The position numbers and the translations under genes are program-made. Below are positions 30,026 to 46,053 of a stretch of DNA of 50,052 nt, piece after piece. Under the pieces are notes generated by a model. That model saw only the letters and a list, made by a program, of their open reading frames with translations, was not told the origin of the DNA and ran no database searches. Origin of the DNA: Sphingobacteriaceae bacterium (GTDB lineage: Bacteria > Bacteroidota > Bacteroidia > B-17B0 > Aurantibacillaceae); the NCBI GenBank assembly GCA_947453445.1, contig CANGGP010000020.1, positions 1-50,052 on the forward strand, written 5' to 3'. Every line of letters starts with the position of its first letter. Position 1 is the first letter of the stretch.

Positions 30026-31225
30026 ATGTCTAAAGAAAATTCATTCAACAATCCATTTCGATGGGCCGTTTTAATGGCCTATTTCGGCGTGGCTGCAATG
30101 AGTCAAATGTTATGGCTTAATCTTGCTCCACTTGTTTCCTTTATTCAATTAAAATACAATGTAAGTGAACTAATGGTCAGTTCATTAATGTTGTCATTCC
30201 CATTGCTGTATGTAGCACTTTCCTTACATACAGGTAGGCTCATTGACACAAAGGGTTATCGTTTTGTTATTATTCTTGGAAGTGTGATTAGTTCAGTTTT
30301 CGCATGTGTACGAATTTTTGACGGCGGTTTTTATTTATTGTTAATAGGACAAACAGGAATAGCCATTGGACAGCCATATATCATTAATGGGATATCAAAA
30401 CTAGTATCTGATTGGTTCGCTAAAGAACAAACTGCGATGGCAACAGGAGTTGGCACAGCAGGAATGCTAATTGGTATGGCACTTGGCATGGGATTAACGC
30501 CTGCACTCAATGCAAGTATAGGTTTTAATAAAACCATGTTAGTATTTGCTATCATTTCAATTCTTCTAACCATGTTTTTTATTTTGTTTGGTAAACAAAA
30601 TAATATTGAAAAAGGAAAAGAAATGGTGATGAATACCATGAATGAAATAAGGTTTTTGATGAAGAATAGAAACCTGAATATATTATTTATCGTTGCTTTT
30701 TTGGCATTAGGGGTTTTTAATGGTCTTACAACTTGGCTAGAACCAATTTTAAAGCCAAATGGTATTGGTGCCGAAGACACAGGACTTGTAGGGGCTTTGT
30801 TAATTATAGGAGGAATTATAGGCTCAGTTGTTATTCCAACCATTTCGGATAAACTAAAAGTGAGAAAGCCGTTTTTGGCCTTGTGTTGTTTTACTGCTTT
30901 AATTATCCTGTATCCATTGTGTACCTTAAGCGCCTTAGTTCCACTTTATATCCTTGGGGGATTAATGGGTTTCTTTTTTCTTCCAGGATATGCTTTATTA
31001 TTGTCAATGAGTGAAGAAATTGCCGGAAAGGAAAAAGCCGGAATGGCAACAGGAATCTTAATGTTAGCTGGTAATGCAGGAGGCGTAGTAGTAATACTTT
31101 TAATGCCTTTGGTGAATAGTTCAACTTCGAATTGGTTAAATGCAGTATATTTAATGGTAGGTTTGATGCTTGTAACCCTTCTCACCGTCGTTTTTGTATT
31201 AAAAGAAACATTTGTAGGAGACTAA
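30026..31225 (+). CDS. Major facilitator superfamily transporter
   Basis: A 399-residue protein with about 12 hydrophobic helices arranged as two sets of six with a basic central loop. The MFS signature between helices 2 and 3 is present in altered form (HTGRLIDTKGYRFV), and the first helix contains YFGVAAMSQMLWLNLAP. The overall pattern resembles the FLVCR/nitrate-sulfonate-like or CynX-like branch, but substrate cannot be assigned. It has no promoter with both boxes; TATATTTT at 30003-30010 is one base off the -7 consensus. It lies 80 bases upstream of the PPTase gene on the same strand and may be an exporter for the cluster, or unrelated. Confidence 0.8.
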   Translation: MSKENSFNNPFRWAVLMAYFGVAAMSQMLWLNLAPLVSFIQLKYNVSELMVSSLMLSFPLLYVALSLHTGRLIDTKGYRFVIILGSVISSVFACVRIFDGGFYLLLIGQTGIAIGQPYIINGISKLVSDWFAKEQTAMATGVGTAGMLIGMALGMGLTPALNASIGFNKTMLVFAIISILLTMFFILFGKQNNIEKGKEMVMNTMNEIRFLMKNRNLNILFIVAFLALGVFNGLTTWLEPILKPNGIGAEDTGLVGALLIIGGIIGSVVIPTISDKLKVRKPFLALCCFTALIILYPLCTLSALVPLYILGGLMGFFFLPGYALLLSMSEEIAGKEKAGMATGILMLAGNAGGVVVILLMPLVNSSTSNWLNAVYLMVGLMLVTLLTVVFVLKETFVGD

Positions 31226-31305
31226 ACCAATTTAAAATGAGCAAACAGAAGAAATGTGCAAGCGTGTTGTTTGCATAGTAACTTAGGCTTTTAATTAAGT
31301 GATTT

Positions 31306-32007
31306 ATGGAAATTAGAAGTGGTGAGGTGCATATCTGGAGAAATACACTAAATGAAAATCATTATATCTTAGAAAAACATGAATCATTACTGTCGAATGA
31401 GGAAAAAAGAAGATGTAGTGAGTACATGTATGAAGCCGAGAAAGTACGCTATACTTGCAATCACCGCTTTGTTAGGCAAGTATTATCAAATTACTTAAAA
31501 GTTGAAGCATCGAGTATAGTATTTAGCATCACCAATTTCGGAAAGCCATTTGTAAAAAACACCGGACTTTTCTTCAATTATTCATACAGAGATAAAATTT
31601 GTGTTTTGGCCATATCAAGGGATGCTGAAATTGGCATTGACATAGAAAAAATAAAATTACTACAGGATTTAGAAACCTTTGCCTCTTTTTCGTTTTCAGA
31701 AATGGAAAAGAAAATTATCTTTGAAAGTAGCCCTGAAAATTTTGAATCGACCCTTTTTACTTTTTGGACTTATAAGGAAGCAATAATTAAGGCTTTGGGA
31801 ATTGGTTTAAATGCGGATTTGACACAAATTGACTTGTCGGATTTTCTGTATCATGAAACAAATCAATTGACTTATGCCAATGATGATTTATACACAATTA
31901 AGAGCCTTAAATCGCCTCAAGGTTATAAAGCCGCTATTGCCATTCGAGGGAAAATAAATGCCATTTTAGAATTTAATAACGATAAAACATTTGTAATCCA
32001 AGATTGA
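31306..32007 (+). CDS. Sfp-type 4'-phosphopantetheinyl transferase
   Basis: This enzyme moves the phosphopantetheine arm of CoA onto a serine of carrier proteins. The 233-residue protein is the long pseudo-dimeric Sfp type (AcpS would be about 125). The metal and CoA motifs are clear: GKPF (79-82), GIDIE (110-114) and FWTYKEAIIKALG (153-165). The usual NxSHS segment is changed to NYSYRDK (91-97). A dedicated Sfp enzyme inside a cluster normally means that the cluster's own carrier protein needs activation; the candidate is the ACP at 42884. It is followed by the Omp85 gene after 31 bases. Confidence 0.92.
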   Translation: MEIRSGEVHIWRNTLNENHYILEKHESLLSNEEKRRCSEYMYEAEKVRYTCNHRFVRQVLSNYLKVEASSIVFSITNFGKPFVKNTGLFFNYSYRDKICVLAISRDAEIGIDIEKIKLLQDLETFASFSFSEMEKKIIFESSPENFESTLFTFWTYKEAIIKALGIGLNADLTQIDLSDFLYHETNQLTYANDDLYTIKSLKSPQGYKAAIAIRGKINAILEFNNDKTFVIQD

Positions 32008-32038
32008 ACAATAACTAACCAACAGGAACCATCCTTCT

Positions 32039-33268
32039 ATGACTTTTTTCCGTGTAATATTGATTGGTTGCCTTCTGTTAATTTTAATGGATTCATTCTC
32101 ACAGGTCGATACTACAAGGTTAAAGGTTTTATCAAATGACAAGCAAGAAATTGACAATCAAAAGGACGCCGATATTATTGACTTCTTAAGGATTAAGAGG
32201 CGAAATGAAGAATTAGAGAAGTCAAGTAAAAAAACAATGAAGCCAAGAGCCACGTTTGTACCATTTATTGGTTACACGCTGCAAACACGCTTAGCGGGAA
32301 TTTTAGCTGGAAACTTAGCTTTTTATAGTGACGATTTGGATGGAAGAAATCAATCGGCGATAAGTACAAGCATTAGTTACTCCCAAAACAAGCAAATTAT
32401 TATACCCGTTCTTTCTAATATATGGACCAAAAGAAACCGCTACAATATACTTGGAAATTGGCGATACTATAAATATCCTGAACAAACCTTTGGACTAGGT
32501 GGACACACGGGTTTAAAAAACAAAACTAAACTTGATTACCAATATTTTCTGTTTCGTGAGTCGGTATTGAGGCATGTTTCTAATTCAGCATTTTACTTGG
32601 GTTTGGGTTATAATCTTAGTTACCATGCGAATATTATTCAGAATCCATCCTTATCGGGAGAATTAACTGACTTCGATAAATATGGTCGCACTAAAAAGTC
32701 GTGCTCTTCGGGATTATCCATACATGCTTTATTCGATAATAGGGGAAATACCATCAATCCACTTAAAGGCGCGTATGTGAACCTTACATTTTATCATTAT
32801 GCAAAATTCTTGGCCAGTGATAATAATTGGGATGCATTGATTTTGGATATGAGAAAATATTTAAAACTTGGTAAAGCTAAAAATGTATTGGCAATTTGGA
32901 GTTATAACTGGTTTACTTTTGGAGGAAAAAGGCCGTATTTGGATTTACCCAGCACCGGTTGGGATGCTTATTCCAATATAGGACGCGGATATATTCAAAG
33001 CAGGTTAAGAGGAGAAAACCTAATGTACTTGGAATTGGAATACCGCTTTAAGATTTCGCATAATGGATTATTAGGTGGTGTATTATTTACAAATGCTCAA
33101 TCTGTTTCTGATTGGCCATCAAATAAATTCACAACAATCTTTCCTGCTGTTGGAACCGGGATTCGTATAAAATTGAATAAATTTTCAGGTACCAACCTAG
33201 CAATAGACTATGGTTTTGGGCTTCAAGGTTCGCAAGGCTTATTTATAAATATTGCAGAAATCTTTTGA
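32039..33268 (+). CDS. Omp85/BamA-like outer-membrane barrel without POTRA domains
   Basis: A 409-residue protein with a signal peptide (VILIGCLLLILMDSFSQ), a charged region of about 50 residues and then a beta-barrel of roughly 340 residues. The barrel carries the Omp85 (bacterial surface antigen) features: a RGYIQSRLRGENL segment similar to the VRGF-type lid motif, LELEYRF in a late strand and a C-terminal strand pair ending LFINIAEIF. There is no room for POTRA domains, unlike BamA or TamA. Patatin-free short Omp85 proteins of this type occur in Bacteroidota without known function. In this cluster it may help place a product in the outer membrane, which is speculation. Confidence 0.75.
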   Translation: MTFFRVILIGCLLLILMDSFSQVDTTRLKVLSNDKQEIDNQKDADIIDFLRIKRRNEELEKSSKKTMKPRATFVPFIGYTLQTRLAGILAGNLAFYSDDLDGRNQSAISTSISYSQNKQIIIPVLSNIWTKRNRYNILGNWRYYKYPEQTFGLGGHTGLKNKTKLDYQYFLFRESVLRHVSNSAFYLGLGYNLSYHANIIQNPSLSGELTDFDKYGRTKKSCSSGLSIHALFDNRGNTINPLKGAYVNLTFYHYAKFLASDNNWDALILDMRKYLKLGKAKNVLAIWSYNWFTFGGKRPYLDLPSTGWDAYSNIGRGYIQSRLRGENLMYLELEYRFKISHNGLLGGVLFTNAQSVSDWPSNKFTTIFPAVGTGIRIKLNKFSGTNLAIDYGFGLQGSQGLFINIAEIF

Positions 33269-33356
33269 TAATTGAAAGATTAAAAGGCAATTATGACGAA
33301 TTCCTTTTAAAAAAAGAATTTTTAATTTTAAATTCACCCACAAGAAAAATAATTTA

Positions 33357-34478
33357 ATGATAAGCATCCAAAAAATAAATTTTCCTGAAAAGATTGGAGA
33401 TTTCATCGATTTCCCCCATTCTTTATATGAAGGGGATCCGAATTACGTTCCAGAATTATATATTGCACAAAGGGACATGCTCAATCCTGCCAAACACCCC
33501 TTTTATGAGCACTCGAAATTACAATTATTTTTGGCTTACAAAAACAAGAAGATAGTTGGTCGTATTGCGGCAATTCGAAACAATAATCACATTAATTTTA
33601 CAGGTAATCAAGATGGGTTTTTTGGTTTTTTTGAATCCATTAATGATTTTGAGGTGGCTCGTCATTTATTTGATGCTGCTGCTAAGTGGGTAAAAGAAGA
33701 AGGGCTTAATTCAGTTTTGGGGCCGGCAAGTTTTTCTACGAATGAAATTTTTGGATGGCATATGGATGCTTTTGATGTACCGCCAATGATAAGCATGGGG
33801 TATAACAAATCATACTATCCCGAATTTGCAAATCGTTATGGGTTCACAAAATTTACAGATCACTATGCTTATTTTATCAATACAAAGGATGTATCTGAAA
33901 AAGCAATTCATGTTAGTGGGGCATTTGAACAACGGCTAAAATCTAAAGGCATTACCATTCGTACTGTGAACATGAAGAAATTTGACGACGAAGCAAAAAA
34001 GGCTCAAATGGTCTATAATACGGCATGGGAAAAAAACATTGGCTTTGTACCTATGACATATAATGAATTTATGTATTTGGCTAAAGACATGAAGACGATA
34101 ATGGATCCAGAATTGTGTTATGTTGCAGAATTAGATGGGAAATTTATTGGATTTTCATTTTCATTTCCTGACATTAATCAAGTTTTGAATGGTGTTAAAA
34201 AGGGGCGTTTATTGCCTTTCGGGATTTTTAAATTATTGTTGAATAGGCGTAAAATTAATAAAATGCGTGTAGTTGTGATGGGGGTGATACCGGGATTTCG
34301 TAAACAGGGCATTGAAGCGGTATTTTATGCCAAGACAATTCAATATGCCAAAAAAAATAATTTAATTGGAGGCGAAGCCTCTCTAATTCTTGAGAACAAC
34401 GATATGATGAATCAAGCCTTGAAAAATTTGGGAGCCTTTGTTTACAAAACGTACCGTGTATATAAACTAAATGTGTGA
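33357..34478 (+). CDS. YghO-type GNAT protein, ceramide-synthase-like N-acyltransferase
   Basis: A 373-residue protein of the GNAT-fold family that includes E. coli YghO and the Caulobacter bacterial ceramide synthase (bCerS). Family traits visible by eye: LYEGDPNYVPEL near residue 25, NPAKHPFYEH, the FGFFESINDFEVA motif, the GPASFSTNEIFGWHMDAFDVPPM block, and a C-terminal GNAT motif PGFRKQGIEAVFY (about 312) for acyl-CoA or acyl-carrier binding. bCerS joins a fatty acyl group to the amine of 3-ketosphinganine. Here it would N-acylate the base made by the oxoamine synthase at 43953; that assignment is inference. Its stop overlaps the start of the PAP2 gene by four bases, so the two are coupled. 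Confidence 0.75.
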   Translation: MISIQKINFPEKIGDFIDFPHSLYEGDPNYVPELYIAQRDMLNPAKHPFYEHSKLQLFLAYKNKKIVGRIAAIRNNNHINFTGNQDGFFGFFESINDFEVARHLFDAAAKWVKEEGLNSVLGPASFSTNEIFGWHMDAFDVPPMISMGYNKSYYPEFANRYGFTKFTDHYAYFINTKDVSEKAIHVSGAFEQRLKSKGITIRTVNMKKFDDEAKKAQMVYNTAWEKNIGFVPMTYNEFMYLAKDMKTIMDPELCYVAELDGKFIGFSFSFPDINQVLNGVKKGRLLPFGIFKLLLNRRKINKMRVVVMGVIPGFRKQGIEAVFYAKTIQYAKKNNLIGGEASLILENNDMMNQALKNLGAFVYKTYRVYKLNV

Positions 34479-35398
34479 TTAAAAAAGCTTCGCATACTTT
34501 TTTGAAATATTTAACGCCACTTGATTTTGCAAGCATCTTTTATGTTGTTTTTTCAGGTGCTTATCTCTTCTTTGGGAGGGAAAGACTTATCAATGTTCAA
34601 GAACATTTCTATATCAGGTTGCTCCTTTTGATTGTGATTATTTCGTTGTTAACTTTTAGTGTTAAGTATCCAAAAAATAAAATGATTATTTTTTTCAGAG
34701 GGATTTATCCAATATTTTTTATAAGTTTTTTTTACACTGAAACAAGCAGCTTGAAAAATATCTTATTCCACAATAATTTGGATGTTTTTTTTTATAATGC
34801 TGAACAAAACCTTTGGCACTGCCAACCAAGTATTGCATTTTCAAAATTTATGAATGATGCTTGGTTCAATGAAATAATGAATCTATGCTATTTTTCATAT
34901 TATATCATCATTATTATTACGTGCATTTTATTATTTATGAAAAACACCTTGCCTGCGCAAAAAGCAATATTCACTGTATTTTTTTCCTTTTACTTATATT
35001 ATATCATTTTTGATATTTTGCCAGTCGCCGGGCCCCAATACTATGCAGTGAATTTAAATTCGGAACCTTTACCACCATATTTTTTTGGTAAAATAATGCA
35101 TCAAATTCTCATCAACATTGAAAAGCCAACTGGTGCTTTTCCCAGTTCACATGTTGGCATTGCATGCATTATTGCATATGTTTTTTTTAAACAATTCAAA
35201 AAAATATTTTTTATTATTTTGCCTTTTGTAATTGGTATTTGTTTTGCAACTGTTTACCTTAAAGCACATTATTTGGTGGATGTAATTGCTGGTGTTTTTT
35301 CAGCATTTCTTTTTATTTTGATAAGTGAATATGTTTTTAATAAAATTTCAATACTTACCAAAGGTTGGATCAATAATAAAAACCCATTTTATAACTAA
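34475..35398 (+). CDS. PAP2-superfamily membrane phosphotransferase (AUR1-like)
   Basis: A 307-residue protein with about six membrane helices and the conserved lumen/periplasm-facing PAP2 motifs: PSSH (223-226) with His226, and YLKAHYLVDVIAG (261-273) with His265 and Asp269. The PVAGPQ segment at about 183-188 resembles the conserved Pro/Gly stretch in AUR1/inositolphosphorylceramide-synthase-like members. Such enzymes move a phospho-headgroup between lipids or remove phosphate. With a ceramide-synthase-like gene directly upstream, headgroup transfer to a ceramide is the simplest reading. The start is GTG (34475), overlapping the previous stop (GTGA). The gene is very AT-rich with long T runs, more so than the housekeeping genes. 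Confidence 0.78.
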   Translation: MIKKASHTFLKYLTPLDFASIFYVVFSGAYLFFGRERLINVQEHFYIRLLLLIVIISLLTFSVKYPKNKMIIFFRGIYPIFFISFFYTETSSLKNILFHNNLDVFFYNAEQNLWHCQPSIAFSKFMNDAWFNEIMNLCYFSYYIIIIITCILLFMKNTLPAQKAIFTVFFSFYLYYIIFDILPVAGPQYYAVNLNSEPLPPYFFGKIMHQILINIEKPTGAFPSSHVGIACIIAYVFFKQFKKIFFIILPFVIGICFATVYLKAHYLVDVIAGVFSAFLFILISEYVFNKISILTKGWINNKNPFYN

Positions 35399-35454: not shown

Positions 35455-36300
35455 ATGGCAATTAAAATTATTATGTTTCCCGGTCAAGGTTCACAATTTA
35501 AAGGCATGGGTGAAACATTATTTAAGGAATTTCCGGATGCTGTTGCACAAGCAAATCAAACCCTAGGATATGACATAGTGGATTTGTGTATGAACGATCC
35601 TGACACCAAACTAAATCAAACAAATTACACGCAACCTGCTTTGTTTTTTGTAAACTATCTTAATTATCAAAAGTTTTTACAAACCAATGAAAAGCCTGCG
35701 TTTTTACTTGGACATAGTTTAGGGGAATTTAATGCATTAAATGCTGCAGGCGTATTTGATATGGCGACAGGTTTAAAAATTGTACAGAAGAGAGGAGAGC
35801 TAATGTATTCAATCATGGGTACTTCTATGGCTGCAATTGTTGGCGTAGATTATATGGAAATAAATGAAATTATTATAAGCAAATTCCCAGATCTTGACAT
35901 TGCAAATATAAATACAACATCCCAAGTAGTAATTTCAGGTAAAACTGAAACATTAAACTTGGCTGCCGATTATTTTGAAGAGGAAGGACTTGTTTATATA
36001 CCGCTTAAAGTGAGTGGCGCGTTTCATTCAAGGTACATGTTGCCAGTAAAAAATATGTTTCAAAATTATGTTCAGTCTCTTCACTTAAACTTTTGTCAAA
36101 TTCCTGTGATATCAAATTATACCGCTTCAATTTACCCTGCAAATATTGACGGAATCATTGGGAACATTGTTAATCAAATTAATAGCCCTGTAAAATGGCT
36201 GCAAAGTATTCAATTATTGATTGAGCAAGGTGAAACTGACTTTGTTGAAATTGGAGCAGGCGAAGTATTAACAAATTTGGTGAGAAAAATAAAGATTTAA
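35455..36300 (+). CDS. Malonyl-CoA:ACP acyltransferase, trans-AT type
   Basis: A 281-residue FabD-fold acyltransferase that loads malonyl units onto carrier proteins. The catalytic Ser88 lies in GHSLGE and His191 in GAFHS; Arg113 in QKRGELM fits malonyl specificity. FPGQGSQ (8-14) is intact. The GHSLGEFNALNAAGVFD stretch followed by TGLKIVQKRGELM matches discrete acyltransferases of trans-AT polyketide clusters (PksC/PedD) better than housekeeping FabD, as far as I can recall. Its presence inside the cluster implies a supply of malonyl-ACP separate from primary metabolism. It begins 56 bases after the PAP2 gene. Confidence 0.88.
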   Translation: MAIKIIMFPGQGSQFKGMGETLFKEFPDAVAQANQTLGYDIVDLCMNDPDTKLNQTNYTQPALFFVNYLNYQKFLQTNEKPAFLLGHSLGEFNALNAAGVFDMATGLKIVQKRGELMYSIMGTSMAAIVGVDYMEINEIIISKFPDLDIANINTTSQVVISGKTETLNLAADYFEEEGLVYIPLKVSGAFHSRYMLPVKNMFQNYVQSLHLNFCQIPVISNYTASIYPANIDGIIGNIVNQINSPVKWLQSIQLLIEQGETDFVEIGAGEVLTNLVRKIKI

Positions 36301-36387: not shown

Positions 36388-36921
36388 GTGAATAGTGAAG
36401 AAAAAGAAGCCTTAATTTATGGCTTAAAGCGAGACATATTATTGATGCCACAGCAGGGGGCATCTAAACTGAGTTTTGATACCGAAGATATTTATAAGAT
36501 TATCCCTCACAGGCCGCCATTTGCATTAATTGCTTCAATTAAGGAAGTTAATTTACTTGAAAGAATTATTGAAGTGACAAGTCAAATTAATCCAAGTGAT
36601 CCTATTTTTAAAGGTCATTTTCCCGGCGCCCCTGTTTACCCTGGTGTGATGCTGATAGAAACCATGGGCCAGGCGGGTTTATGTTTGGCTTATTTTGTAA
36701 AAAACAATACCTTAGAAATCAATGATAATAGCAAGTCTGTGAAGGGTTTATTTACCCGCGTTCATAACGCCGGTTTTAACAAGGCGGTGCAACCTGGCGA
36801 TCTTTTAACAGTGCGAGTTAAGTCGATTGAAGATGATGATTTTATGGGCTTAATGTGCGCGCAGGTAATTGTAAATAACGATATTTATTCACATAGTATT
36901 TTAGAAGTTTATTATCCTTAA
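36388..36921 (+). CDS. FabZ-like 3-hydroxyacyl-ACP dehydratase
   Basis: A 177-residue hotdog-fold protein. It contains IPHRPPFALI (39-48), and the catalytic His77 in FKGHFPGAP and Glu91 in GVMLIETMGQAG, which are the FabZ catalytic pair. FabZ removes water from 3-hydroxyacyl-ACP to give trans-2-enoyl-ACP. It has about 30 residues more at the N-terminus than typical FabZ; the start is taken as GTG 36388, with an internal ATG at 36445 as alternative. It stands between the acyltransferase and ketosynthase genes, so it probably processes ordinary elongation cycles of the cluster's chain. Confidence 0.88.
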   Translation: MNSEEKEALIYGLKRDILLMPQQGASKLSFDTEDIYKIIPHRPPFALIASIKEVNLLERIIEVTSQINPSDPIFKGHFPGAPVYPGVMLIETMGQAGLCLAYFVKNNTLEINDNSKSVKGLFTRVHNAGFNKAVQPGDLLTVRVKSIEDDDFMGLMCAQVIVNNDIYSHSILEVYYP

Positions 36922-38247: not shown

Positions 38248-38991
38248 ATGAAGATATTTATAACTGGTGGATCACGAGGGATTGGCCGTAGAATAGTGAC
38301 CATGGCATTGGAAAGGGGTCATGATGTTGCCTTTACTTATAATAGTTCAAATAAGGCACACATTGAACAGCTTCTTGAAGAAGCGAAAATGCTAGCACCT
38401 AATAGCATGTGCAAGGGTTATCAGCTAAATGTTCGAAATGTTGATGATGTTGTGAGAGTAACTGATGATGTACTTGACGATTTTGAATCGATTGATACTG
38501 TGATTAACAATGCGGCCATCAATAGAAATAATTTGGCTTTTCACATGACCGATGAAGAATGGCATGACGTAATTGACACAAATTTAAATGGTGCATTTTA
38601 TGTTATTCGACAATTTTTACCGGTTTTTTTGGCAAACAGAAAAGGTCGTTTTGTTTCTGTATCTTCTATTGCAAAGGATGGAATTTCCGGTCAAGCCAAT
38701 TATAGCGCCAGTAAAGCTGGATTAATCGGACTTTCAGGCACCATTGCCAAAGAGTATGGAATTAAAGGTATCACAAGTAATGTGGTAGTGCCGGGTATGT
38801 TTGAAACCGACATGGTTAAGGAAACATTAAGTGACAACCTAAGAAAGTTTTGGCTTTTGCATAATCCAATGAAACGAATGGGTCATTTGGATGAGTTAGC
38901 AGAAGTGGCTTTGTTTCTTGGGTCTGACGCGGCAAGTTTTGTAAATGGCCAGGTGATAAGTGTTACCGGAGGACTAGATTGGGCAGAGTAG
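38248..38991 (+). CDS. FabG-like 3-ketoacyl-ACP reductase
   Basis: A 247-residue classical short-chain dehydrogenase. The cofactor loop is TGGSRGIGR (6-14), NNAA is at 87-90, Asn113 is in DTNLNGAF, the catalytic Ser is in SVSSIAK (139/140), and Tyr152-x3-Lys156 is in YSASK. The C-terminal SVTGGLDW fits FabG. It would reduce 3-ketoacyl-ACP to 3-hydroxyacyl-ACP with NADPH. Position between the ketosynthase and the HMG-CoA-synthase homolog places it in the acyl-chain half of the cluster. It is distinct from the other three SDRs here, which have different motifs. Confidence 0.87.
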   Translation: MKIFITGGSRGIGRRIVTMALERGHDVAFTYNSSNKAHIEQLLEEAKMLAPNSMCKGYQLNVRNVDDVVRVTDDVLDDFESIDTVINNAAINRNNLAFHMTDEEWHDVIDTNLNGAFYVIRQFLPVFLANRKGRFVSVSSIAKDGISGQANYSASKAGLIGLSGTIAKEYGIKGITSNVVVPGMFETDMVKETLSDNLRKFWLLHNPMKRMGHLDELAEVALFLGSDAASFVNGQVISVTGGLDWAE

Positions 38992-39096: not shown

Positions 39097-40329
39097 ATGA
39101 AAAAATTCGGCATTGAAAAAATTAGGGTTTATCCTGGAGCACTTCAATTGAATCTTGAGGAACTTGCTATTGCTCGCAATTATGATGTTGAACACATGCG
39201 AAGGGAACTTATGGTTGAAACCCGAAGTGTAAACCCTCCTTGGGAAGATACGGTGACAATGGCTGTAAATGCTGCCAAACCAATGTTGACACAAGAAGAC
39301 ATAAACTCTATAGGATTATTAATTGTTGGTACCGAAACAAGTCTTGATAATGAAAAATCCGTAAGTTCTTGGGTGCTGCATCATTTAGGTTTGCCAAGTG
39401 CTTGTCGGCATTTTGAAGTAAAGATTGCCTGTTATTCCGGAACTGCTGCATTAAAAATGGCTGTGTCATGGTTATCATCAGGCATGGCACGTGCAGGACA
39501 AAAGGCTTTAATTATTAGTACAGATGAAAGTTTAAATTCAATTCATCGTCCTTGGGAATATGTTTGTGGCGCCGGTTCAGTAGCAATGTTAGTTTCCGAT
39601 CAACCTGATTTTCTAGTACTAGAAACTGAAAAATTTGGTTTATATGCACATGAAGTCGCCGATGTGATACGTCCGCTGCCATGGTTGGAAACTGGTAACA
39701 GTGAGCATAGTTTGTATTCATACATGGAAGCATTGGCTGCTACCTATGAAGATTTTGAATTAAATGTAGGCAACATCGATTACGATAGTTATTTCAAATA
39801 CCATATTTATCATGTTCCTTTTAGTGGGATTAGTTATCGAGCTCACAAACAACTTATGCGCATGAGTTCTTTTGATGTAACAGATGAAGAAATAGCAACA
39901 AGCTGGAAAAACAAAGTGTCTCCTTCTATTAATTTTTCTAAACGAATTGGCGGAACTTATGGCGGAAGCATTTTCATTGCCTTATTATCAACAATTACTT
40001 CAGTGAATGACTTAAAGGCAGATGACCGTATCAGTGTTTTTTCATATGGTTCAGGTTCTTGTGCGGAATTTTACAGTGTAATGACAACTGAAAAATCTAA
40101 AGAAATTGCATTGGCAAGTGGACTGCATGAATTAATTGATGCACGGTATAAAATAGATGTGAAAGCATATGAAGCCATGGAGTTGGCTAGAGAAGAACGT
40201 ATTAAAAGTAAAGAATTTACACCTGATTACGACTTGGTTCAAGGTTTATACAATGAAGTATACAAGGATAAAGGTTTATTGGTTTATACCGGCACTAAAG
40301 AGTATTACAGAAGTTACAATTTCAGTTAA
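39097..40329 (+). CDS. HMG-CoA-synthase homolog of beta-branching type (PksG-like)
   Basis: A 410-residue protein that aligns by eye along its length with PksG and related HMGS enzymes of polyketide beta-branching cassettes. The catalytic triad is visible: Glu80 in GTETSLDN, Cys112 in KIACYSGTAA and His239 in YHVPFSG. Additional matches are NAAKPML, VCGAGSVAMLV, VIRPLPWLETGNS and SYGSGSCAEFYS. The enzyme adds an acetyl carbanion from acetyl-ACP to a beta-ketoacyl-ACP, giving a 3-hydroxy-3-carboxymethyl intermediate. Primary-metabolism HMGS (mevalonate pathway) is an alternative, but the neighbouring ECH1 and ECH2 genes argue strongly for beta-branching. The ECH1 gene starts three bases after the stop. 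Confidence 0.9.
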   Translation: MKKFGIEKIRVYPGALQLNLEELAIARNYDVEHMRRELMVETRSVNPPWEDTVTMAVNAAKPMLTQEDINSIGLLIVGTETSLDNEKSVSSWVLHHLGLPSACRHFEVKIACYSGTAALKMAVSWLSSGMARAGQKALIISTDESLNSIHRPWEYVCGAGSVAMLVSDQPDFLVLETEKFGLYAHEVADVIRPLPWLETGNSEHSLYSYMEALAATYEDFELNVGNIDYDSYFKYHIYHVPFSGISYRAHKQLMRMSSFDVTDEEIATSWKNKVSPSINFSKRIGGTYGGSIFIALLSTITSVNDLKADDRISVFSYGSGSCAEFYSVMTTEKSKEIALASGLHELIDARYKIDVKAYEAMELAREERIKSKEFTPDYDLVQGLYNEVYKDKGLLVYTGTKEYYRSYNFS

Positions 40330-40332: not shown

Positions 40333-41025
40333 ATGTATCAAGAAATTAACATTACAAACGTTTTAAATCCAGACTCAATCAAACAAATTCTTGATCAGCT
40401 CGAAAGGTGTGAACAAGAGAATGTGCGTTTTGTTGTTTTAAAAGGTGCGGAAAAAGTTTTTTGTAATGGCTTAGATATCGCATGGGTTGTGAACGGTGAA
40501 GAATCCAAATTCGCTCAGGCAATGAATCTCTACGCCACATGCTTAAAGAAATTACAAGTGGGTAAATTTATTTCAGTTGCGTTGGTGAATGGTACAGTGG
40601 CAGGAGGGGGAATGGGTTTAGTTTGTGCTTGCGACTTTGTTATTGCTGAGGAGTCAAGTACATTTTCGCTTCCTGAAGGTTTATTAGGTTTAATTCCGGG
40701 AATGATTCTTCCTGCCTTATTAAACAGATTAAGTCCACAATGTATTAAGAAAATGGTATTTACCGGAAAAAAATATTCTGCCAGCACAGCCATTGAATTT
40801 GGTATTGTGGATGAAATATCAAACAATCATTCAAAAGCATTGAATAATGCTGTAAATACTATGCGTTCGTGTAAAACAACCGCTGTAGGCGATATAAAAG
40901 AAATTTTATATACGTTTCATTCAAATAATGATGAATTGGCATTGCAAGGAATGATTAATTTGAGGGCCAAACTTCAAGACCCGGAAATTAATCAAAGGTT
41001 ACAGGATATTGCTGAAATGCTGTAA
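40333..41025 (+). CDS. Enoyl-CoA hydratase family, ECH1 dehydratase (PksH-like)
   Basis: A 230-residue crotonase-fold protein. The oxyanion-hole segments are KVFCNGLDI (41-49) and VNGTVAGGGMGLVCACD (85-101), followed by FSLPEGLLGLIPGMILP. Short length and the N-terminal shape resemble PksH/CurE-type ECH1, the enzyme that dehydrates the HMG-like intermediate to a 3-methylglutaconyl-ACP analog. It sits directly after the HMGS homolog, the order found in beta-branching cassettes, and is the last gene of the first plus-strand run. It converges with the FabL-like gene at 41904. A role in ordinary beta-oxidation is less likely given the neighbours. Confidence 0.82.
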   Translation: MYQEINITNVLNPDSIKQILDQLERCEQENVRFVVLKGAEKVFCNGLDIAWVVNGEESKFAQAMNLYATCLKKLQVGKFISVALVNGTVAGGGMGLVCACDFVIAEESSTFSLPEGLLGLIPGMILPALLNRLSPQCIKKMVFTGKKYSASTAIEFGIVDEISNNHSKALNNAVNTMRSCKTTAVGDIKEILYTFHSNNDELALQGMINLRAKLQDPEINQRLQDIAEML

Positions 41026-41100: not shown

Positions 41101-41904
41101 TTAAATGCCAAACTCATCTCTGTTTTTGTACATATAGGAATAACCTTCAATAAAGTTATAGCCTTTATCGGCGTTGATGGTTTGGCCGCGAATGCCATCC
41201 ATTAATCCGCTACACATCATATAAACTACTTTTGCTACTTCTTCTAGGTCAACATGTGTGCCTGGAATATCATATTTTTCAATAAATTCTTTCCATTCTT
41301 TTCCAACTGTCATTAATAAAGAATCGGTTATCACAGGCCTTGTGCGTAAAATATTAAAAATAACACCATCCTCAAAAAAGTGGTAACTTAAATATTTTAT
41401 CAATACTTCGTTTAAAGTTTTGGTTGCGGCAGCAAAATCGTAATTTACATAAAATCTATCCGGACCATGAGACGACAATCCCATCACATACTTCGGGTAT
41501 TTCCCAAAAACTGCTTTCATTTGTCGTGTGTATTCAACCATAGGCCAGCAGCTGTATTCAATGCTTTTTAACAAAGCAGCTTCACTGTAATCATCAATGC
41601 CTTTTACCAAATTAGCAAAAGATACATTTGAAATAAAAATGTCGACACCGCCAAAGCGTGTTTTTATTTCCTGCATTAATTCTGCTGTATCTTCATTATT
41701 GATTACATCAGATTGTTTTAAGTAAGGTGCAGGTAAACCTCGTTCCTTAAATTCATTTAAAAAATCATCGTCTTCAATACTACCCCAACCATAAGTAATA
41801 ACACATTGGTCGCCATGTTCGGCAAATTTAAAAGCAATTTCTTTTCCAATTCCCTTAGTTCCACCGGTAATTAAAATCACACGTTTATTTGTATTAGCTG
41901 ACAT
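41101..41904 (-). CDS. FabL/FabI-like enoyl-ACP reductase, copy 1
   Basis: A 267-residue SDR with the cofactor loop TGGTKGIGK (13-21). The active-site spacing is not the usual Tyr-x3-Lys: it is Tyr155-x6-Lys162 (YDFAAATK), the pattern of the enoyl reductases FabI and FabL. The preceding LSSHGPD and the following KYLSYHF also resemble FabL. FISNVSF replaces the classical NNAG. It is a clear paralog of the gene at 43129. It would saturate the enoyl or beta-methyl-enoyl ACP product. Its ATG lies inside the 3' end of the ECH2 gene (11-base overlap), so the two are cotranscribed and coupled. Confidence 0.72.
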   Translation of the reverse strand: MSANTNKRVILITGGTKGIGKEIAFKFAEHGDQCVITYGWGSIEDDDFLNEFKERGLPAPYLKQSDVINNEDTAELMQEIKTRFGGVDIFISNVSFANLVKGIDDYSEAALLKSIEYSCWPMVEYTRQMKAVFGKYPKYVMGLSSHGPDRFYVNYDFAAATKTLNEVLIKYLSYHFFEDGVIFNILRTRPVITDSLLMTVGKEWKEFIEKYDIPGTHVDLEEVAKVVYMMCSGLMDGIRGQTINADKGYNFIEGYSYMYKNRDEFGI

Positions 41905-42655
41905 AATTTTCTTTAATAATTTTTAATATTTCATCCTCGTTAAAGGTTATTTCGTGCATCATTGTTTCAATGCTATATGTTTCTTCAAACAACTTGCGAC
42001 GTTCCATACTTTGGTAACGTTTTAATACCATGAGTGCCTTCCTCGGTTTTTCAGCTATATTCTCAGCCAGTTCATAGGCTTTTTCAAGTACTACTTTTTT
42101 AGGTAATATATAATTGAAGTTTGTTTTCCCAATTAAATCACGGCCTTGGTAAAATTTGCCGCTATATTGCATTTCTTGAGCAATGGCAGGCGACATATAA
42201 TGTTCCATCAGTTTGGTAATACCCATTCCGGGGGTGAAGCCCATATTCATAAATGAACAACCATATCGACTTTCTTCTGCTAAAACAGCAATATCTGCAC
42301 ATAGGCCAAGTGCGAGACCGCCACCAATGGCATGTCCTTCAATTGCCGATATCACCGGAACAGGAATATCCAGAATCATTTTAGAGAGAATGATGTCAAC
42401 TGGTTTCAATTCGCGTTTACAAAGTTGTATCAAGGTTTTTAAATCTGCACCTGAACAAAAAACATCATTTAAGCCTTTAATGACCAATACCTTCAAATCT
42501 GTGTTCGCCTTCAATAAACTTAAACACTCAACTAATTCTTCAACAAAATGAGGAGTTAAAGCGTTTTTACCCTCAATGTCGCCCATTGCAAGTGTAAAAA
42601 TACCCGTTGAATCGGCTTGAATCGTGACAAATGGATTTTCAGTTAGTGGAGGCAT
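41894..42655 (-). CDS. Enoyl-CoA hydratase family, ECH2 decarboxylase (PksI-like)
   Basis: A 253-residue crotonase-fold protein. Recognisable parts: NPFVTIQADSTGIFTLAM at the N-terminus, FCSGADL (66-72), PVISAIEGHAIGGGLALGL (100-118) and FMNMGFTPGMG (135-145), ending with AEKPRKAL and a polar tail. FVTIQ...IA, the GHAIGGG loop and FM..GFTPGMG match PksI/CurF-type ECH2, which decarboxylates the 3-methylglutaconyl intermediate to a beta-methyl-enoyl-ACP. With ECH1 and HMGS this completes a beta-branching cassette. The gene is on the opposite strand from ECH1, divergent from the ACP gene. The ECH2 label is a motif judgement; the superfamily is secure. Confidence 0.8.
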   Translation of the reverse strand: MPPLTENPFVTIQADSTGIFTLAMGDIEGKNALTPHFVEELVECLSLLKANTDLKVLVIKGLNDVFCSGADLKTLIQLCKRELKPVDIILSKMILDIPVPVISAIEGHAIGGGLALGLCADIAVLAEESRYGCSFMNMGFTPGMGITKLMEHYMSPAIAQEMQYSGKFYQGRDLIGKTNFNYILPKKVVLEKAYELAENIAEKPRKALMVLKRYQSMERRKLFEETYSIETMMHEITFNEDEILKIIKENYVS

Positions 42656-42712
42656 GTTTACTTCTTAACAATGGTTATTTTGCTTTTGGCGAAAATGATA
42701 AAATTGTGGATT

Positions 42713-42720: not shown

Positions 42721-42833
42721 AGAATAAATTGCACTTAAAACTGTATTTGACAGTTAATATGCGTGTATATGAATCAAATATGATTAAAATGGACTTATTT
42801 TAATTAAAACATGCAATAGAAAACGAATTTTAT

Positions 42834-42841
42834 TAATTTTG
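42834..42841 (+). promoter_or_regulatory. Candidate -7 element of the ACP operon
   Basis: TAATTTTG matches TAnnTTTG exactly and lies 42 bases before the ACP start (42884). The -33 box is not obvious. With the minus-strand element at 42713 it marks the 228-bp divergent control region of the cluster. Confidence 0.45.
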
Positions 42842-42883
42842 AATCCTTACAATTAAATAATAAATAAATAACAAAAGATAAAT

Positions 42884-43132
42884 ATGGAAAGACAAGACAT
42901 CTTAAAAGTAATTGAGAAACATTTAGCTAAATCAGTACCTGGAATTGAAGCAGGAATAGACCCTCAAAAAAAATTCACCGACTATGGTGCAAACAGTTTA
43001 GATATAGTAGAAATTGTTTCAGGCTCAATGCGCGAATTAAAAGTGAAAATTCCTCGCACTGAACTTTCTGATATCCAAAATATTTCTGGATTGATTGATA
43101 AGTTTGAAGCATTTGCCACTAAAACAGCATGA
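42884..43132 (+). CDS. Acyl carrier protein (donor-ACP-like)
   Basis: An 82-residue acyl carrier protein, the only carrier in the cluster. The phosphopantetheine site is Ser38 in YGANSLDIVE, followed by the helix-2 pattern IVEIVSG and the C-terminal ELSDIQNISGLIDKFE. The usual Asp before the Ser is Asn here (GANSLD); I recall the same GANS form in the donor ACPs (AcpK type) that carry acetyl groups for the HMGS of beta-branching cassettes. It could also carry the growing chain, since no other ACP is encoded here. The Sfp-type PPTase at 31306 probably activates it. Its stop overlaps the next ATG by four bases (ATGA). Confidence 0.92.
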   Translation: MERQDILKVIEKHLAKSVPGIEAGIDPQKKFTDYGANSLDIVEIVSGSMRELKVKIPRTELSDIQNISGLIDKFEAFATKTA

Positions 43133-43950
43133 GTAAAAGTTTCCCGGATTTCTCAGGTAAAGTAGTACTTATTACCGGCGGAACCAGGGGTATTGGTTTA
43201 GAAACAGGACTCTCCTTTGCAAAAAGGGGAGCTCTTTGCATTCTAACTTACAGCTGGGGCGACCATGATGAATCATCTATTTACAAAAGTTTTGAAGATG
43301 TCAAGGCTTTGAAACCCCTTTTGATTCAAGCTGATGTTATTAAGCTTGAAGATACCCAAGCTTTGCTAGCAAAAATTAAAGAACAGGCAAATAAAATTGA
43401 TGTGTTTATTAGCAATGTGGCTGTTGCTGCTTCTGTAAAAAGCTTTGAAGACCTTTCCTTAAAGGGGCTAAAACAAGCGATATCATATTCAACTTGGCCA
43501 ATGGTAGGTTACACAAAAGAAATATTTAAAGTTTTTGGTTCCTATCCTAAGTATATAATTGGTATGTCATCAACCGGTCCTGATCATTATTCGATGGGAT
43601 ACGATTATGTTGCTTCTTCAAAGGCGCTAATGGAATTATTTGTAAAATATCTGAATTACCATTTACGTGGCCATGATGTTTGTATAAATGTGGTTCGTTC
43701 GAGAGCTGTTAAAACTAAATCTTTGGAGGATACATTCGGGAAAGATCTTGCAGAATTTGTAGATAAATTTATGCCAAATAATTTTTGGATTGAACCGCAA
43801 GAAGTTGCGGAGGCCATTGTTGCACTTTGCTCAGGCTATTGCGATTCAATTAGTGGAGAAACCGTTATGGTAGATAAAGGAACTACCTTTTTTGATAACC
43901 TTATGGAGATTTATAATAGATCTCAAAAAAATAAACTTAAATCAGTATAG
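43129..43950 (+). CDS. FabL/FabI-like enoyl-ACP reductase, copy 2
   Basis: A 273-residue SDR with the cofactor loop TGGTRGIGL (16-24), FISNVAV in place of NNAG, and the active site YDYVASSK: Tyr158-x6-Lys165, the FabI/FabL spacing, with MSSTGPD just before. The sequence matches the minus-strand SDR at 41904 in most motif blocks, including WPMV.YT and YPKY..G.SS.GPD, so the two are paralogs. Presence of two copies may mean that one acts on linear enoyl chains and the other on beta-branched ones; that is inference. It overlaps the ACP stop by four bases and precedes the oxoamine synthase by two. Confidence 0.72.
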   Translation: MSKSFPDFSGKVVLITGGTRGIGLETGLSFAKRGALCILTYSWGDHDESSIYKSFEDVKALKPLLIQADVIKLEDTQALLAKIKEQANKIDVFISNVAVAASVKSFEDLSLKGLKQAISYSTWPMVGYTKEIFKVFGSYPKYIIGMSSTGPDHYSMGYDYVASSKALMELFVKYLNYHLRGHDVCINVVRSRAVKTKSLEDTFGKDLAEFVDKFMPNNFWIEPQEVAEAIVALCSGYCDSISGETVMVDKGTTFFDNLMEIYNRSQKNKLKSV

Positions 43951-43952
43951 AA

Positions 43953-45254
43953 ATGTCGACTATCGATGAAACAATGTCCAAACACTTGAAGGACCATTTT
44001 GCAGAATATACTTATGATATGTTTATGATGAACATGTCGTCAGAACTTGAGGAAATGGAATTATTTTCGGAGTGGGTTGATATTTTAAACAAGAAAAATC
44101 TATACACTTTTGAAGCTGTGCGTTCTGCGGCTCAAAAAACCGAGATTGATCTCATTCGTCAAAATGGTGATAGTGTTCACATCATTAACCTTTCCAGTTA
44201 CAATTACCTTGGTTTTAGTTATCATCCTGATGTGATTAAAGCCGCACAAGATGCAGTTGGTAAATACGGTCTTGGAGCATCTAGCTCACCCGTTATCAGC
44301 GGAACTTATTTAGTTCACAAACAACTGGAAGAAGGTCTCGTGAAATTCTTTGATTTGCCTGATCGAGGTGTTTCTTTGTTTACAGCAGGATACAGTGTAA
44401 ACCTCGGGGCAATTTCGGCATTTATTAAGCCCGGTAATCATGTGGTGATGGATGAAGCATCGCACATGTCAATTGTTGAAGGTGCAAAACTTTCTGGTGG
44501 CGAAATGACTTATTTTAAGCATAACGACATGTTGCATTTGGAAGAAATATTGAAAAAGGTGTGTGACGGTTTTACTCGAGTGTTAATTTGTATTGAAGGT
44601 GTTTATAGTGGCGATGGTGATTACGGCAATGTAAAAGGTGTTGTTGAATTGGCTAAAAAATATGGCGCATACACTTTGGTTGATGAAGCGCATTCTGCAT
44701 TGGTGGCTGGAGAAAATGGCCGAGGTGTTTGTGAAATGCAAGGTGTTTTAGAAGACGTTGACATGTACGTAATGACATTTAGCAAAGCTTTTGGAGGCGT
44801 TGGAGGCGGTGTATATGGCAAGAAGGAAATTATCCAATATCTTAATTGGTATGCCAGATGCCGTATGTTCTCCTGCGCTTTGGATCCGGCTGTTACAGGT
44901 GGTATGGCAAAAGTGGTAGAACTAGCAGGAACTGAGATTGGGAAAGAAAGAAGAACTAGAATTAAATCGAACGCCAATTATTTTAGAAATTTGTTACAAG
45001 GAAAAGTAAATGTGGGCGGGAATGATTCATGGGTGGTGATTGTAAACTTTGGCGATGAGTCAAAAACATTAAATCTTAACGACTACTTGCAACGCGCCGG
45101 ACTTGACACCAGCATCATTCAATTTCCTGCTGTACCTAAAGGTGAAGCCAGAATAAGAATGTTTGTAACATCCGAACACACTGAAGAGCAGTTGAAAAAA
45201 GCAGCCAATATTATTTTAAGCGCCGCTGAGAAATTTGATTTTTTAAAAAAGTAA
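43953..45254 (+). CDS. Alpha-oxoamine synthase (serine palmitoyltransferase/AONS family)
   Basis: A PLP enzyme that condenses an acyl thioester with an amino acid, losing CO2, to give an alpha-amino ketone. The 433-residue protein has the family motifs: NLSSYNYLGFS (79-89), the stacking His171 in DEASHMS, the PLP contacts Asp244 and His247 in VDEAHSA, and the Schiff-base Lys278 in TFSKAFGG. The N-terminus is about 50 residues longer than in Bacteroides-type SPT. Its position three genes from the ACP and directly before a ketosphinganine-reductase-like gene suggests sphingoid-base formation from an acyl-ACP. KBL, AONS (biotin) and cysteate-using capnine synthase belong to the same superfamily and cannot be excluded by motif alone. 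Confidence 0.9.
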   Translation: MSTIDETMSKHLKDHFAEYTYDMFMMNMSSELEEMELFSEWVDILNKKNLYTFEAVRSAAQKTEIDLIRQNGDSVHIINLSSYNYLGFSYHPDVIKAAQDAVGKYGLGASSSPVISGTYLVHKQLEEGLVKFFDLPDRGVSLFTAGYSVNLGAISAFIKPGNHVVMDEASHMSIVEGAKLSGGEMTYFKHNDMLHLEEILKKVCDGFTRVLICIEGVYSGDGDYGNVKGVVELAKKYGAYTLVDEAHSALVAGENGRGVCEMQGVLEDVDMYVMTFSKAFGGVGGGVYGKKEIIQYLNWYARCRMFSCALDPAVTGGMAKVVELAGTEIGKERRTRIKSNANYFRNLLQGKVNVGGNDSWVVIVNFGDESKTLNLNDYLQRAGLDTSIIQFPAVPKGEARIRMFVTSEHTEEQLKKAANIILSAAEKFDFLKK

Positions 45255-45267
45255 TTAATCAGTTAAT

Positions 45268-46053
45268 ATGAAAAAAGTAGCATTAATAACAGGTGGATCT
45301 TCCGGACTAGGTTATGCCTTGGCTGAATTATTGGGTAAGCAAGATTATTCAATCATCATTGTGGCCCGTAATCAAGAACGGATTAATAAAGCAGTGAGTT
45401 CATTAAGTAGTATGAAGATTACCGTAAAAGGTATTTCTTGTGATATTACAAGCGAAGTTGCTTTGAAAAAAACGTTCGAACAAGTAAAAACAGAATATGG
45501 TAAAATTGATTATCTGGTTTTAAATGCAGGTGTTGTTACTACCAAATTGTTATCTGATTACACCAGTGCTGCTGAAATGAAACAAGATCTTGAAATAGAC
45601 CTTTGGGGAACTATTCTTTCTGCGCACACTTTTCTACCATTATTGGTGAATGGCACAAAAGTATTATTAATTTCTTCAGGCTTTGGCCTAATGGGTGCTG
45701 CCGGCTATTCAATGTACTGTGCTGCTAAAGCCGGAATCATCAACTTTGGAGAGTGTTTGCGTCGCGAATTATTGAATAAAGGCATCAATGTTTATGTGGC
45801 TTGCCCCGGCGATATGGATACTCCTCAGTTTCATCAGGAAATTAAAAACGCGCCACAATGGATGAAAAAGGAAACACATCGTAAATTAATGAAAACCGCA
45901 GAAGTAGCTGTTAAAATTTTAAATCAAGCTAAAGGAAAAAAGAAGTATCTAATAGTGCCTTCAGGTGATGTAAATTTGTTAGTAGTTTTAAGTAAAATTC
46001 TTCCAAGAAAATTTAGAGATTATCTTTTAGATAACATGTTTCCCAGACCTTAG
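45268..46053 (+). CDS. SDR resembling 3-ketodihydrosphingosine reductase
   Basis: A 261-residue SDR with cofactor loop TGGSSGLGY (8-16), LNAGVV (85-90), catalytic Ser137 in LISSGFG and Tyr150-x3-Lys154 in YCAAK. The GAAGYSMYCAAKAGI stretch and the PGDMDTP segment match KDSR/FVT1-type reductases, which reduce the 3-keto group of ketosphinganine. The C-terminal region (ILPRKFRDYLLDNMF) is basic and amphipathic and could sit on a membrane. It follows the oxoamine synthase by 13 bases, as expected for the next step in sphingoid-base synthesis. Other SDR substrates are possible. Confidence 0.78.
   Translation: MKKVALITGGSSGLGYALAELLGKQDYSIIIVARNQERINKAVSSLSSMKITVKGISCDITSEVALKKTFEQVKTEYGKIDYLVLNAGVVTTKLLSDYTSAAEMKQDLEIDLWGTILSAHTFLPLLVNGTKVLLISSGFGLMGAAGYSMYCAAKAGIINFGECLRRELLNKGINVYVACPGDMDTPQFHQEIKNAPQWMKKETHRKLMKTAEVAVKILNQAKGKKKYLIVPSGDVNLLVVLSKILPRKFRDYLLDNMFPRP

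Follow-up and report, generated by a model that had tools for sequence, protein, structure and literature searches.

The window analysed in this study is a 50,052-nucleotide stretch (positions 1 to 50,052 of contig CANGGP010000020.1, assembly GCA_947453445.1; contig C20 of a 3.72 Mb genome) from a Sphingobacteriaceae bacterium, and the system in question is a gene cluster at 30026-46053 that joins the enzymes of polyketide beta-branching to genes of the sphingolipid type. The 17 open reading frames (ORFs) that an earlier, sequence-only reading had placed there were confirmed at the same coordinates (Table 1). The plus strand carries, in this order, a major facilitator superfamily (MFS) transporter, a 4'-phosphopantetheinyl transferase (PPTase), an Omp85 protein, a GNAT protein, a PAP2 protein, a malonyl-CoA:ACP transferase (AT), a dehydratase (DH), a ketosynthase (KS), a ketoreductase (KR), HMGS and ECH1. 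The enoyl reductase (ER) ER1 and ECH2 lie on the minus strand with overlapping ends, followed on the plus strand by the closely packed genes of an acyl carrier protein (ACP), ER2, an alpha-oxoamine synthase (AOS) and a KDSR-like short-chain dehydrogenase (SDR). The cluster is flanked by an RNase Y gene (28163-29779) on one side and by a DUF4833 gene and a DEAD-box helicase gene (46149 onward) on the other. We consider it rather probable that these genes form a pathway dedicated to a beta-methyl-branched lipid of the sphingolipid type.

When the window HMGS was compared with the PDB, CurD (252.9 bits) and PksG (244.4 bits) were the two closest proteins; the third match was 8s81, an unspecified HMG-CoA synthase-like protein (237.4 bits), and the entries labelled HMG-CoA synthase scored 178 bits or less. 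For ECH2, CurF and PksI gave 153.3 and 148.9 bits, respectively, and the next enzyme gave 86.6 bits. For ECH1, PksH led with a small margin, about 8 bits ahead of a runner-up at 80.7 bits, and no NCBIfam cut-off was passed among the best 25 of 72 matches. A mevalonate HMGS was rejected because the nearest structures are CurD and PksG, and a beta-oxidation enoyl-CoA hydratase was rejected for ECH2, which exceeds the cut-off of NF005496 and stands nearest to CurF and PksI, and less firmly for ECH1. The sequence-only reading had assigned the three proteins to polyketide branching, and the polyketide enzymes were indeed closer than those of the mevalonate pathway or beta-oxidation, as judged by nearest structures and family models rather than by a tree. 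The motifs ACYSG and YHVPF of HMGS were conserved in 17 distinct sequences, MMHE of ECH2 in 15, and Y-x6-K of ER1 in 16; all motif counts given here include the window's own sequence. ER1, whose gene end overlaps that of ECH2, is a candidate for the reduction of the branched enoyl product.

Every part of the synthase is a separate ORF, as expected from the earlier statement that the locus has no modular polyketide synthase (PKS), and none was detected among the other window ORFs scanned, the remainder of the genome not having been searched for one. The sequence-only reading had listed KS, AT and ACP; DH, KR, two FabL-like ERs and the PPTase were found in addition, and by their predicted functions these proteins together make up a complete reductive, discrete (type II) synthase. 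The nearest PDB structures of the KS are of the FabF type, its Cys-His-His residues are intact in 16 distinct sequences, and its top NCBIfam model, PRK07103, which stays below its cut-off, is one that we take to be of the PksF type. Because Cys-His-His is kept, the KS probably elongates, as a condensing KS rather than a KS0. KS0 proteins usually lack the active-site Cys. In the textbook cassette, a non-elongating KS0 decarboxylates malonyl on the donor ACP (PMC12560621; papers are cited by PMC number for the parts of their text that were available). The claim of a full beta-branching set of HMGS, ECH1, ECH2, KS, AT and ACP therefore stands as far as all genes were found; since the KS has an intact Cys and resembles a condensing KS, not KS0, the set is full only if the acetyl donor comes from the window KS or from an enzyme outside the cluster. 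We speculate that the KS might both elongate and make this donor. The NSLD motif of the ACP is conserved in 16 distinct sequences, and its top model, PRK07117, also below its cut-off, presumably represents AcpK of PksX, a donor ACP. A Trp flag is frequent in acceptor ACPs but can be dispensed with (PMC10006238); the window ACP sequence contains no Trp.

The AOS scored 266, 248 and 227 bits with three models of serine palmitoyltransferase (SPT), whose cut-offs of 500, 640 and 670 bits, respectively, were not reached; its highest scores were with BioF and Kbl models and, in the PDB, with Kbl structures. The motifs SYNYLG, the His of DEASHMS, TFSKAFGG and RIRM are conserved in 16 distinct sequences, and the catalytic residues, the pyridoxal phosphate (PLP) Lys, Asn, His and Arg, whose roles have been described (PMC9304779), are all kept. 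Lys281 of SulA, where SPT has Ala, is the residue that tells SulA from SPT (PMC9304779). At this position, the window AOS and 15 of 15 distinct orthologues have Cys, all 30 comparators (2 above an SPT cut-off and 28 SPT-like proteins below it) have Ala, and a SulA-like protein of the same genome has Lys. In a tree with the 30 comparators, the cluster AOS proteins formed a clade of their own (100/99) apart from the SPT clade (98/92), and this separateness is all that we used from the tree, because the SulA and Kbl branches are very long. By score, residue and clade, the cluster AOS is neither a canonical SPT nor SulA; SulA was rejected since Cys stands where SulA has Lys281.

Two further AOS proteins are encoded in the genome. 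The one on contig C11 is a glycine C-acetyltransferase (above cut-off), and the SulA-like one on contig C33 (G000, L061:10000-11283) scored 582 bits with cysteate-C-fatty acyltransferase (CFAT) and 620 bits with 7u7h, which is SulA (PMC9304779). The cluster AOS shares 31% identity with this SulA-like protein. Given a SulA/CFAT-like AOS with the diagnostic Lys, the organism probably makes sulfonolipids as well, and the cluster AOS would be an additional activity. The SDR matched only general SDRs in the PDB (E <= 1e-20), and its motif DMDTPQF, which resembles what we take to be the KDSR motif, was invariant in 13 distinct sequences.

The GNAT protein had been called YghO-type. Its sequence found nothing in the PDB at E <= 1, and its predicted model had moderate confidence (predicted local distance difference test, pLDDT, 68.8). 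By fold, glucosamine N-acetyltransferase and other tandem GNATs ranked first (10-14% identity), N-myristoyltransferases ranked lower, and the matches overall had 8-14% identity. On its predicted tandem-GNAT fold, the protein is a candidate for ceramide-type N-acylation. The PAP2 protein reached 29.5 bits with the phosphoinositol dihydroceramide synthase model NF052609, far below the cut-off of 480. Its predicted model (pLDDT 71.4) had as top structural relative the ceramide-bound inositol phosphorylceramide (IPC) synthase (Z 13.6, 255 residues aligned, root-mean-square deviation 4.8), followed by Aur1 (Z 12.9), a human sphingomyelin-synthase-related protein (Z 10.3) and others at 9.3 or less; for helical proteins, Z values lower than about 13 may lack specificity. 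The His motifs are conserved in nine distinct sequences. We regard the PAP2 protein as a candidate Aur1/IPC-synthase-like enzyme by predicted fold, and a shared fold leaves the head group undefined.

A fatty-acid hydroxylase gene and a fatty-acid desaturase-like gene directly follow ECH1 in the relatives G008, G055, G057 and G065; the pairs of four relatives lie at L047:6620-8346, L035:12028-13761, L055:4718-6464 and L056:4639-6327, with the Pfam assignment made on the pair of G057. In G056, a matching desaturase piece at the contig end adjoins ER1. The only two PDB entries that the hydroxylase matched at E <= 0.01 are those of yeast Scs7 (1.4e-28), which hydroxylates the very-long-chain fatty acid of ceramide. 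Among the 87 genomes of the family set (the order-level set is the same 87), hydroxylase orthologues of at least 60% identity occurred in eight, namely in 8 of 17 genomes with HMGS and in 0 of 70 others (p = 4e-7). One orthologue (G060) has an internal stop, weak matches of 34-38% in G013, where HMGS is present, and in G014, G024 and G031, where it is absent, were not counted, and the hydroxylase motifs could be read over only three distinct sequences. By sequence relationship, the hydroxylase would be an independent pointer to ceramide.

The counts over all 87 genomes cover HMGS, AOS, ECH1, GNAT and the hydroxylase; the other genes were read in the stretches around the loci. HMGS had matches in 24 genomes, 17 of them orthologues of at least 70% identity; the seven weak ones (27-30%) were not counted. 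AOS orthologues (at least 77% identity) were found in 16 genomes, 15 of which are shared with HMGS. HMGS occurred without AOS in G008 (60% complete) and G061 (56%), and AOS without HMGS in G056 (82%); AOS is present in each of the 13 HMGS genomes whose completeness is 90% or more. ECH1 (E <= 1e-40) was found in 13 genomes, every one among the 17 with HMGS, and GNAT (at least 52% identity) in 17, of which 16 have HMGS; GNAT matches of 26-30% in G016 and G032 were not counted. The HMGS genome without a counted GNAT is G057, in which the contig ends inside the GNAT gene. Fisher tests, uncorrected for shared ancestry, gave p values of 8e-14, 2e-12 and 2e-15 for HMGS with AOS, ECH1 and GNAT, respectively. 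The sequence-only reading had proposed the genes as a functional unit, and their conservation together in related genomes was borne out. Among 395 genomes across the phylum, HMGS at E <= 1e-40 was found in the window's own genome only, and the distribution of the cluster is narrow.

ACP, ER2, AOS and the KDSR-like gene stand together in 15 of 15 other AOS genomes and in L043, a locus outside the 87 in which the core genes have a different order. ECH2 and ER1 adjoin this group in 14 of the 15, the exception being G063. In G062, G063, G077 and G079, the HMGS part is at a different locus from the AOS part, and beyond the HMGS part come other genes. In G062 the upstream part extends from PPTase or GNAT as far as HMGS, in G077 as far as ECH1, and in G079 it covers AT to ECH1. 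In G063, HMGS, ECH1, AOS, GNAT and the hydroxylase are on five contigs. Because the two parts are split in four genomes and both are nevertheless kept, the co-occurrence is more than mere linkage, and because ECH2 and ER1 travel with the AOS part, the two chemistries are tied together. By inspection, the HMGS of G063 (L057) stands alone between GAPDH-like and peptidase-like genes.

When the window was compared with five relatives, 20-56% of the four-fold degenerate sites were identical, and KS, KR, HMGS, AOS and ER1 had 83-96% protein identity to three same-genus relatives (the HMGS of G013 left out). From such diverged sites together with high protein identity, the cluster genes look old and maintained under constraint, as judged without formal dN/dS. 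KS and KR were 91-96% identical to the three same-genus relatives, compared with 64-76% for the adjacent AT and DH, at equally diverged four-fold sites. KS and KR are under unusually strong constraint. A recent transfer of KS and KR was rejected, since their four-fold sites are as diverged as in other genes. The HMGS of G013 (L039:6923-8159) lies in two frames, through an assembly error or as a decaying gene.

What the sequence shows is which enzymes are encoded, that they are conserved and that they are linked; from this we infer every reaction of the following pathway. The PPTase would activate the ACP and the AT would load malonyl, and the discrete KS, KR and DH together with an ER would build the acyl chain in the style of a type II fatty acid synthase. 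At one or more beta-ketoacyl stages, HMGS would put an acetyl-derived C2 unit on the beta-carbon, ECH1 would dehydrate, ECH2 would decarboxylate, and ER1 would reduce the beta-methyl enoyl product. The ACP would then pass the chain to the adjacently encoded AOS for condensation with an amino acid, for which serine is the likeliest candidate. The KDSR-like SDR would reduce the ketone, the GNAT protein would N-acylate the base, and the Aur1-like PAP2 protein would attach a phospho-head group; in eight relatives, the Scs7-related hydroxylase would act in addition. The sequence-only reading had proposed that the locus makes a beta-branched sphingoid or related amino lipid. The polyketide-type cassette and the joint conservation across the family support this proposal, and the Scs7-related hydroxylase, which is confined to cluster-bearing genomes, and the predicted Aur1/IPC-synthase-like fold add to it.

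Where the branch would lie depends on the cycle. As C3 of the acyl chain becomes C5 of the sphingoid base, a branch of the last cycle would be at C5, and a branch of the first cycle would give an iso end. We offer only tentatively the version in which the cluster makes a new class of sphingolipid, with a cassette-made methyl at C5 of the long-chain base, adjacent to the polar head, a fully discrete synthase and a new class of AOS. The base would be 5-methylsphinganine, or 5-methylsphing-4-enine if the product of ECH2 stays unreduced; the latter, if true, is a sphingosine-like 4-ene made without a desaturase.

Several observations weigh against the proposed pathway. The active-site Cys of the KS is kept, so there is no obvious KS0 for the acetyl donor. 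Cassettes of this kind normally work with two ACPs, a donor and an acceptor, and the locus encodes only one, no second having been found there. The AOS stays below every SPT cut-off and in a separate clade, and since neither its NCBIfam scores nor the residue at which SPT and SulA differ mark it as an SPT, serine as its substrate is a guess. The GNAT model is of moderate confidence, and G004 carries a 52% identical GNAT (G004:C1:3212096-3213214) without HMGS, which possibly serves another lipid. For the PAP2 protein, the Foldseek E-values are weak (0.016, 0.032 and 0.27); because of these values and the warning on Z, its case rests on the ranking of its relatives. Four of 17 HMGS genomes, G028, G061, G062 and G076, gave no ECH1 at E <= 1e-40; completeness is 91-92% for G028 and G076, and divergence, an assembly gap or loss are the options. 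The L043 stretch examined has no GNAT or PAP2 gene. Lastly, the window's own genome has no Scs7-related gene at E <= 1e-20, so hydroxylation would be optional.

As a special case within the proposed pathway, the cassette may act on acetoacetyl-ACP in the first cycle only, giving a 3-methylcrotonyl- and then an isovaleryl-ACP starter for the synthase to extend, and the product would be an ordinary-looking iso-branched sphingoid lipid for which no leucine is needed. The cassette, ER1 and the full elongation set are all in the locus, as this case would demand. The genome also encodes a fused E1 alpha/beta 2-oxoacid dehydrogenase (665 aa, no NCBIfam name above cut-off), a type which, we assume, often serves branched-chain acids in Bacteroidota; iso starters may therefore exist without the cassette, which speaks against this role. 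On the favourable side, AibA/AibB of Myxococcus decarboxylates 3-methylglutaconyl-CoA on the way to isovaleryl-CoA (PMC7756340), and branched-chain sphingoid bases are known from Bacteroides (PMC11765627). We regard this special case as possible but doubtful.

We consider it unlikely that the cluster yields a specialised metabolite, a small beta-branched aminoketone or amino alcohol that is secreted and that the GNAT and PAP2 proteins tailor or detoxify. The best scores of the AOS, with BioF/Kbl models and Kbl structures, would suit such a product, as would the patchy distribution of the cluster (HMGS in 17 of 87 genomes) and the MFS gene; the Scs7-related hydroxylase and the desaturase-like gene inside the cluster of relatives, and a PAP2 fold nearest to ceramide head-group enzymes, argue for a membrane-type lipid instead. 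Still more improbable, in our opinion, is that the branched chain is the N-acyl chain attached by the GNAT protein, with the AOS taking a normal fatty acyl-ACP. The GNAT gene does co-occur with HMGS and precedes AT-DH-KS-KR-HMGS-ECH1 on the strand that they share, but the sole ACP gene stands directly before ER2 and AOS, an order kept in 15 of 15 other AOS genomes, and ECH2-ER1 is also beside ACP-ER2-AOS in 14 of 15. That a polyketide cassette for beta-branching has come by chance to lie beside a lipid locus to which it is unrelated, as the separation of the halves in at least four genomes might suggest, is hardly credible given that both halves are present together (15 shared among 17 HMGS and 16 AOS genomes of 87, p = 8e-14), that ECH2 and ER1, the expected partners of HMGS, sit in the AOS half, and that none of the 13 HMGS genomes with a completeness of 90% or higher lacks AOS.

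The branched sphingolipid-type pathway was then compared with known systems. ECH2 is beside an ER in the cluster, which is presumably also the arrangement of CurF. In sulfonolipid synthesis, the AOS step is followed by reduction and N-acylation. To our knowledge, the AibA/AibB route uses a non-homologous decarboxylase and has no AOS link. Like the cassettes of modular PKSs (PksX, curacin and bongkrekic BonF-I; PMC12560621, PMC10006238), the cluster has HMGS, ECH1, ECH2, a discrete ACP and a malonyl AT; unlike them, it has no modular PKS in the window ORFs scanned, the Cys of its KS is intact, and its partner is an AOS/sphingolipid set. With SulA/CFAT of sulfonolipid synthesis it shares an AOS that would use acyl-ACP and differs from it in the Cys at the position of SulA Lys281 (PMC9304779). 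The AOS, N-acyltransferase and reductase recall the bacterial ceramide pathway (Spt, bCerS and CerR, PMC11087976; the KDSR BT_0972, PMC9278070), in addition to which the cluster holds a candidate PAP2 head-group enzyme, its own synthase and a branching cassette, with an AOS outside the SPT clade. The predicted decarboxylation of a 3-methylglutaconyl thioester to a methyl-branched enoyl resembles the AibA/AibB route of Myxococcus, which, unlike the cluster, is CoA-bound (PMC7756340).

The closest parallel is PfSgaAB(C) of Pseudomonas fluorescens MYb115, for which PKS-derived sphingolipids were reported in 2025 and in which PfSgaAB comprises an iterative type I PKS, an AOS with SPT activity and a KDSR homologue (PMC12134224). 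In both systems, in the window cluster by prediction, a polyketide or fatty-acid synthase feeds an AOS, and a KDSR-like reductase follows. SgaA is a single iterative type I PKS, whereas all parts are discrete here; the cluster has an HMGS cassette, of which the available part of PMC12134224 makes no mention for PfSgaAB; and the SPT activity of SgaB is proven, whereas the cluster AOS is known from sequence. The window locus would thus be built along the lines of PfSgaAB without being a member of it. PKS-made sphingolipids themselves are already known (PMC12134224). For the combination found here, of an HMGS cassette with biosynthesis of the sphingolipid or AOS type, there was no report among the open-access literature matches listed, subscription literature lying outside this scope.

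HMGS cassettes are familiar from the assembly lines of PKSs, and sphingolipid genes from the biology of membranes; here both appear in one conserved pathway. If the proposed pathway is true, it is a new way to make methyl-branched sphingolipid-like membrane lipids; it shows an HMGS cassette in the service of a type II synthase and adds a class of AOS distinct from both SPT and SulA. A branched sphingoid product would mean a source of branched bases independent of leucine-derived starters. HMGS together with the cluster AOS also offers a genetic handle by which producers can be sought in Bacteroidota that are mainly known through metagenomes.

Table 1. Genes of the cluster and the adjoining DUF4833 gene, with the family-model or structural match of each
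Feature	Position	Strand	Match
MFS transporter, possible exporter	30026..31225	+	Pfam MFS_1 142.6 bits
PPTase	31306..32007	+	ACPS and AASDHPPT_N above cut-off; HetI model 123 bits, below cut-off 370
Omp85-family outer-membrane protein, possibly trafficking	32039..33268	+	Omp85 33 bits, cut-off 24
Tandem-GNAT, candidate ceramide-type N-acyltransferase	33357..34478	+	Acetyltransf_1
PAP2_3 protein, candidate Aur1/IPC-synthase-type head-group phosphotransferase	34475..35398	+	PAP2_3 73.4 bits
AT, malonyl-CoA:ACP transferase	35455..36300	+	TIGR00128 FabD 291.4 bits, above cut-off 260.9
DH, FabZ-like dehydratase	36388..36921	+	FabA-like domain above cut-off; FabZ model 93.7 bits, below cut-off 113
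KS, discrete ketosynthase	36946..38229	+	ketoacyl-synt; top NCBIfam model PRK07103 339.7 bits, below cut-off 445
KR, FabG-like ketoreductase	38248..38991	+	TIGR01830 226 bits, below cut-off 297.75; adh_short_C2
HMGS, polyketide beta-branching kind	39097..40329	+	HMG_CoA_synt_N/C; PDB CurD, PksG
ECH1, predicted cassette dehydratase	40333..41025	+	ECH_1; PDB top match PksH 89.1 bits
ER1, FabL-like enoyl reductase	41101..41904	-	FabL model 98 bits, below cut-off 328; adh_short_C2
ECH2, predicted cassette decarboxylase	41894..42655	-	ECH_1; NF005496 272.9 bits, above cut-off 215; PDB CurF/PksI
ACP	42884..43132	+	PP-binding; top model PRK07117 54.6 bits, below cut-off 79
ER2, second FabL-like enoyl reductase	43129..43950	+	FabL model 116 bits, below cut-off 328
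AOS, own class	43953..45254	+	Aminotran_1_2; BioF, Kbl and SPT models 227-298 bits, all below cut-off
KDSR-like SDR	45268..46053	+	adh_short 152.7 bits
DUF4833 protein, possible accessory member	46149..46694	-	PF16117 140 bits

All 17 genes are also present in G003, a genome in one contig. Among the loci read, the MFS gene adjoins the cluster elsewhere only in G003, and several loci stop short of its position. The PPTase gene is also present in the loci of G003, G008, G061, G062 and G077 and in L043, and the Omp85 gene in those of G003, G008, G013 and G077. The DUF4833 gene, which is convergent to the KDSR gene in the window, adjoins KDSR in 6 of 15 other AOS genomes (G028, G055, G056, G057, G060 and G066), and its product may be an unrecognised member of the system. 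Farther upstream, at 9986-16308, Pfam matches to PorV, to a peptidase C25 protein of 1317 aa and to PorP/SprF point to a type IX secretion locus.

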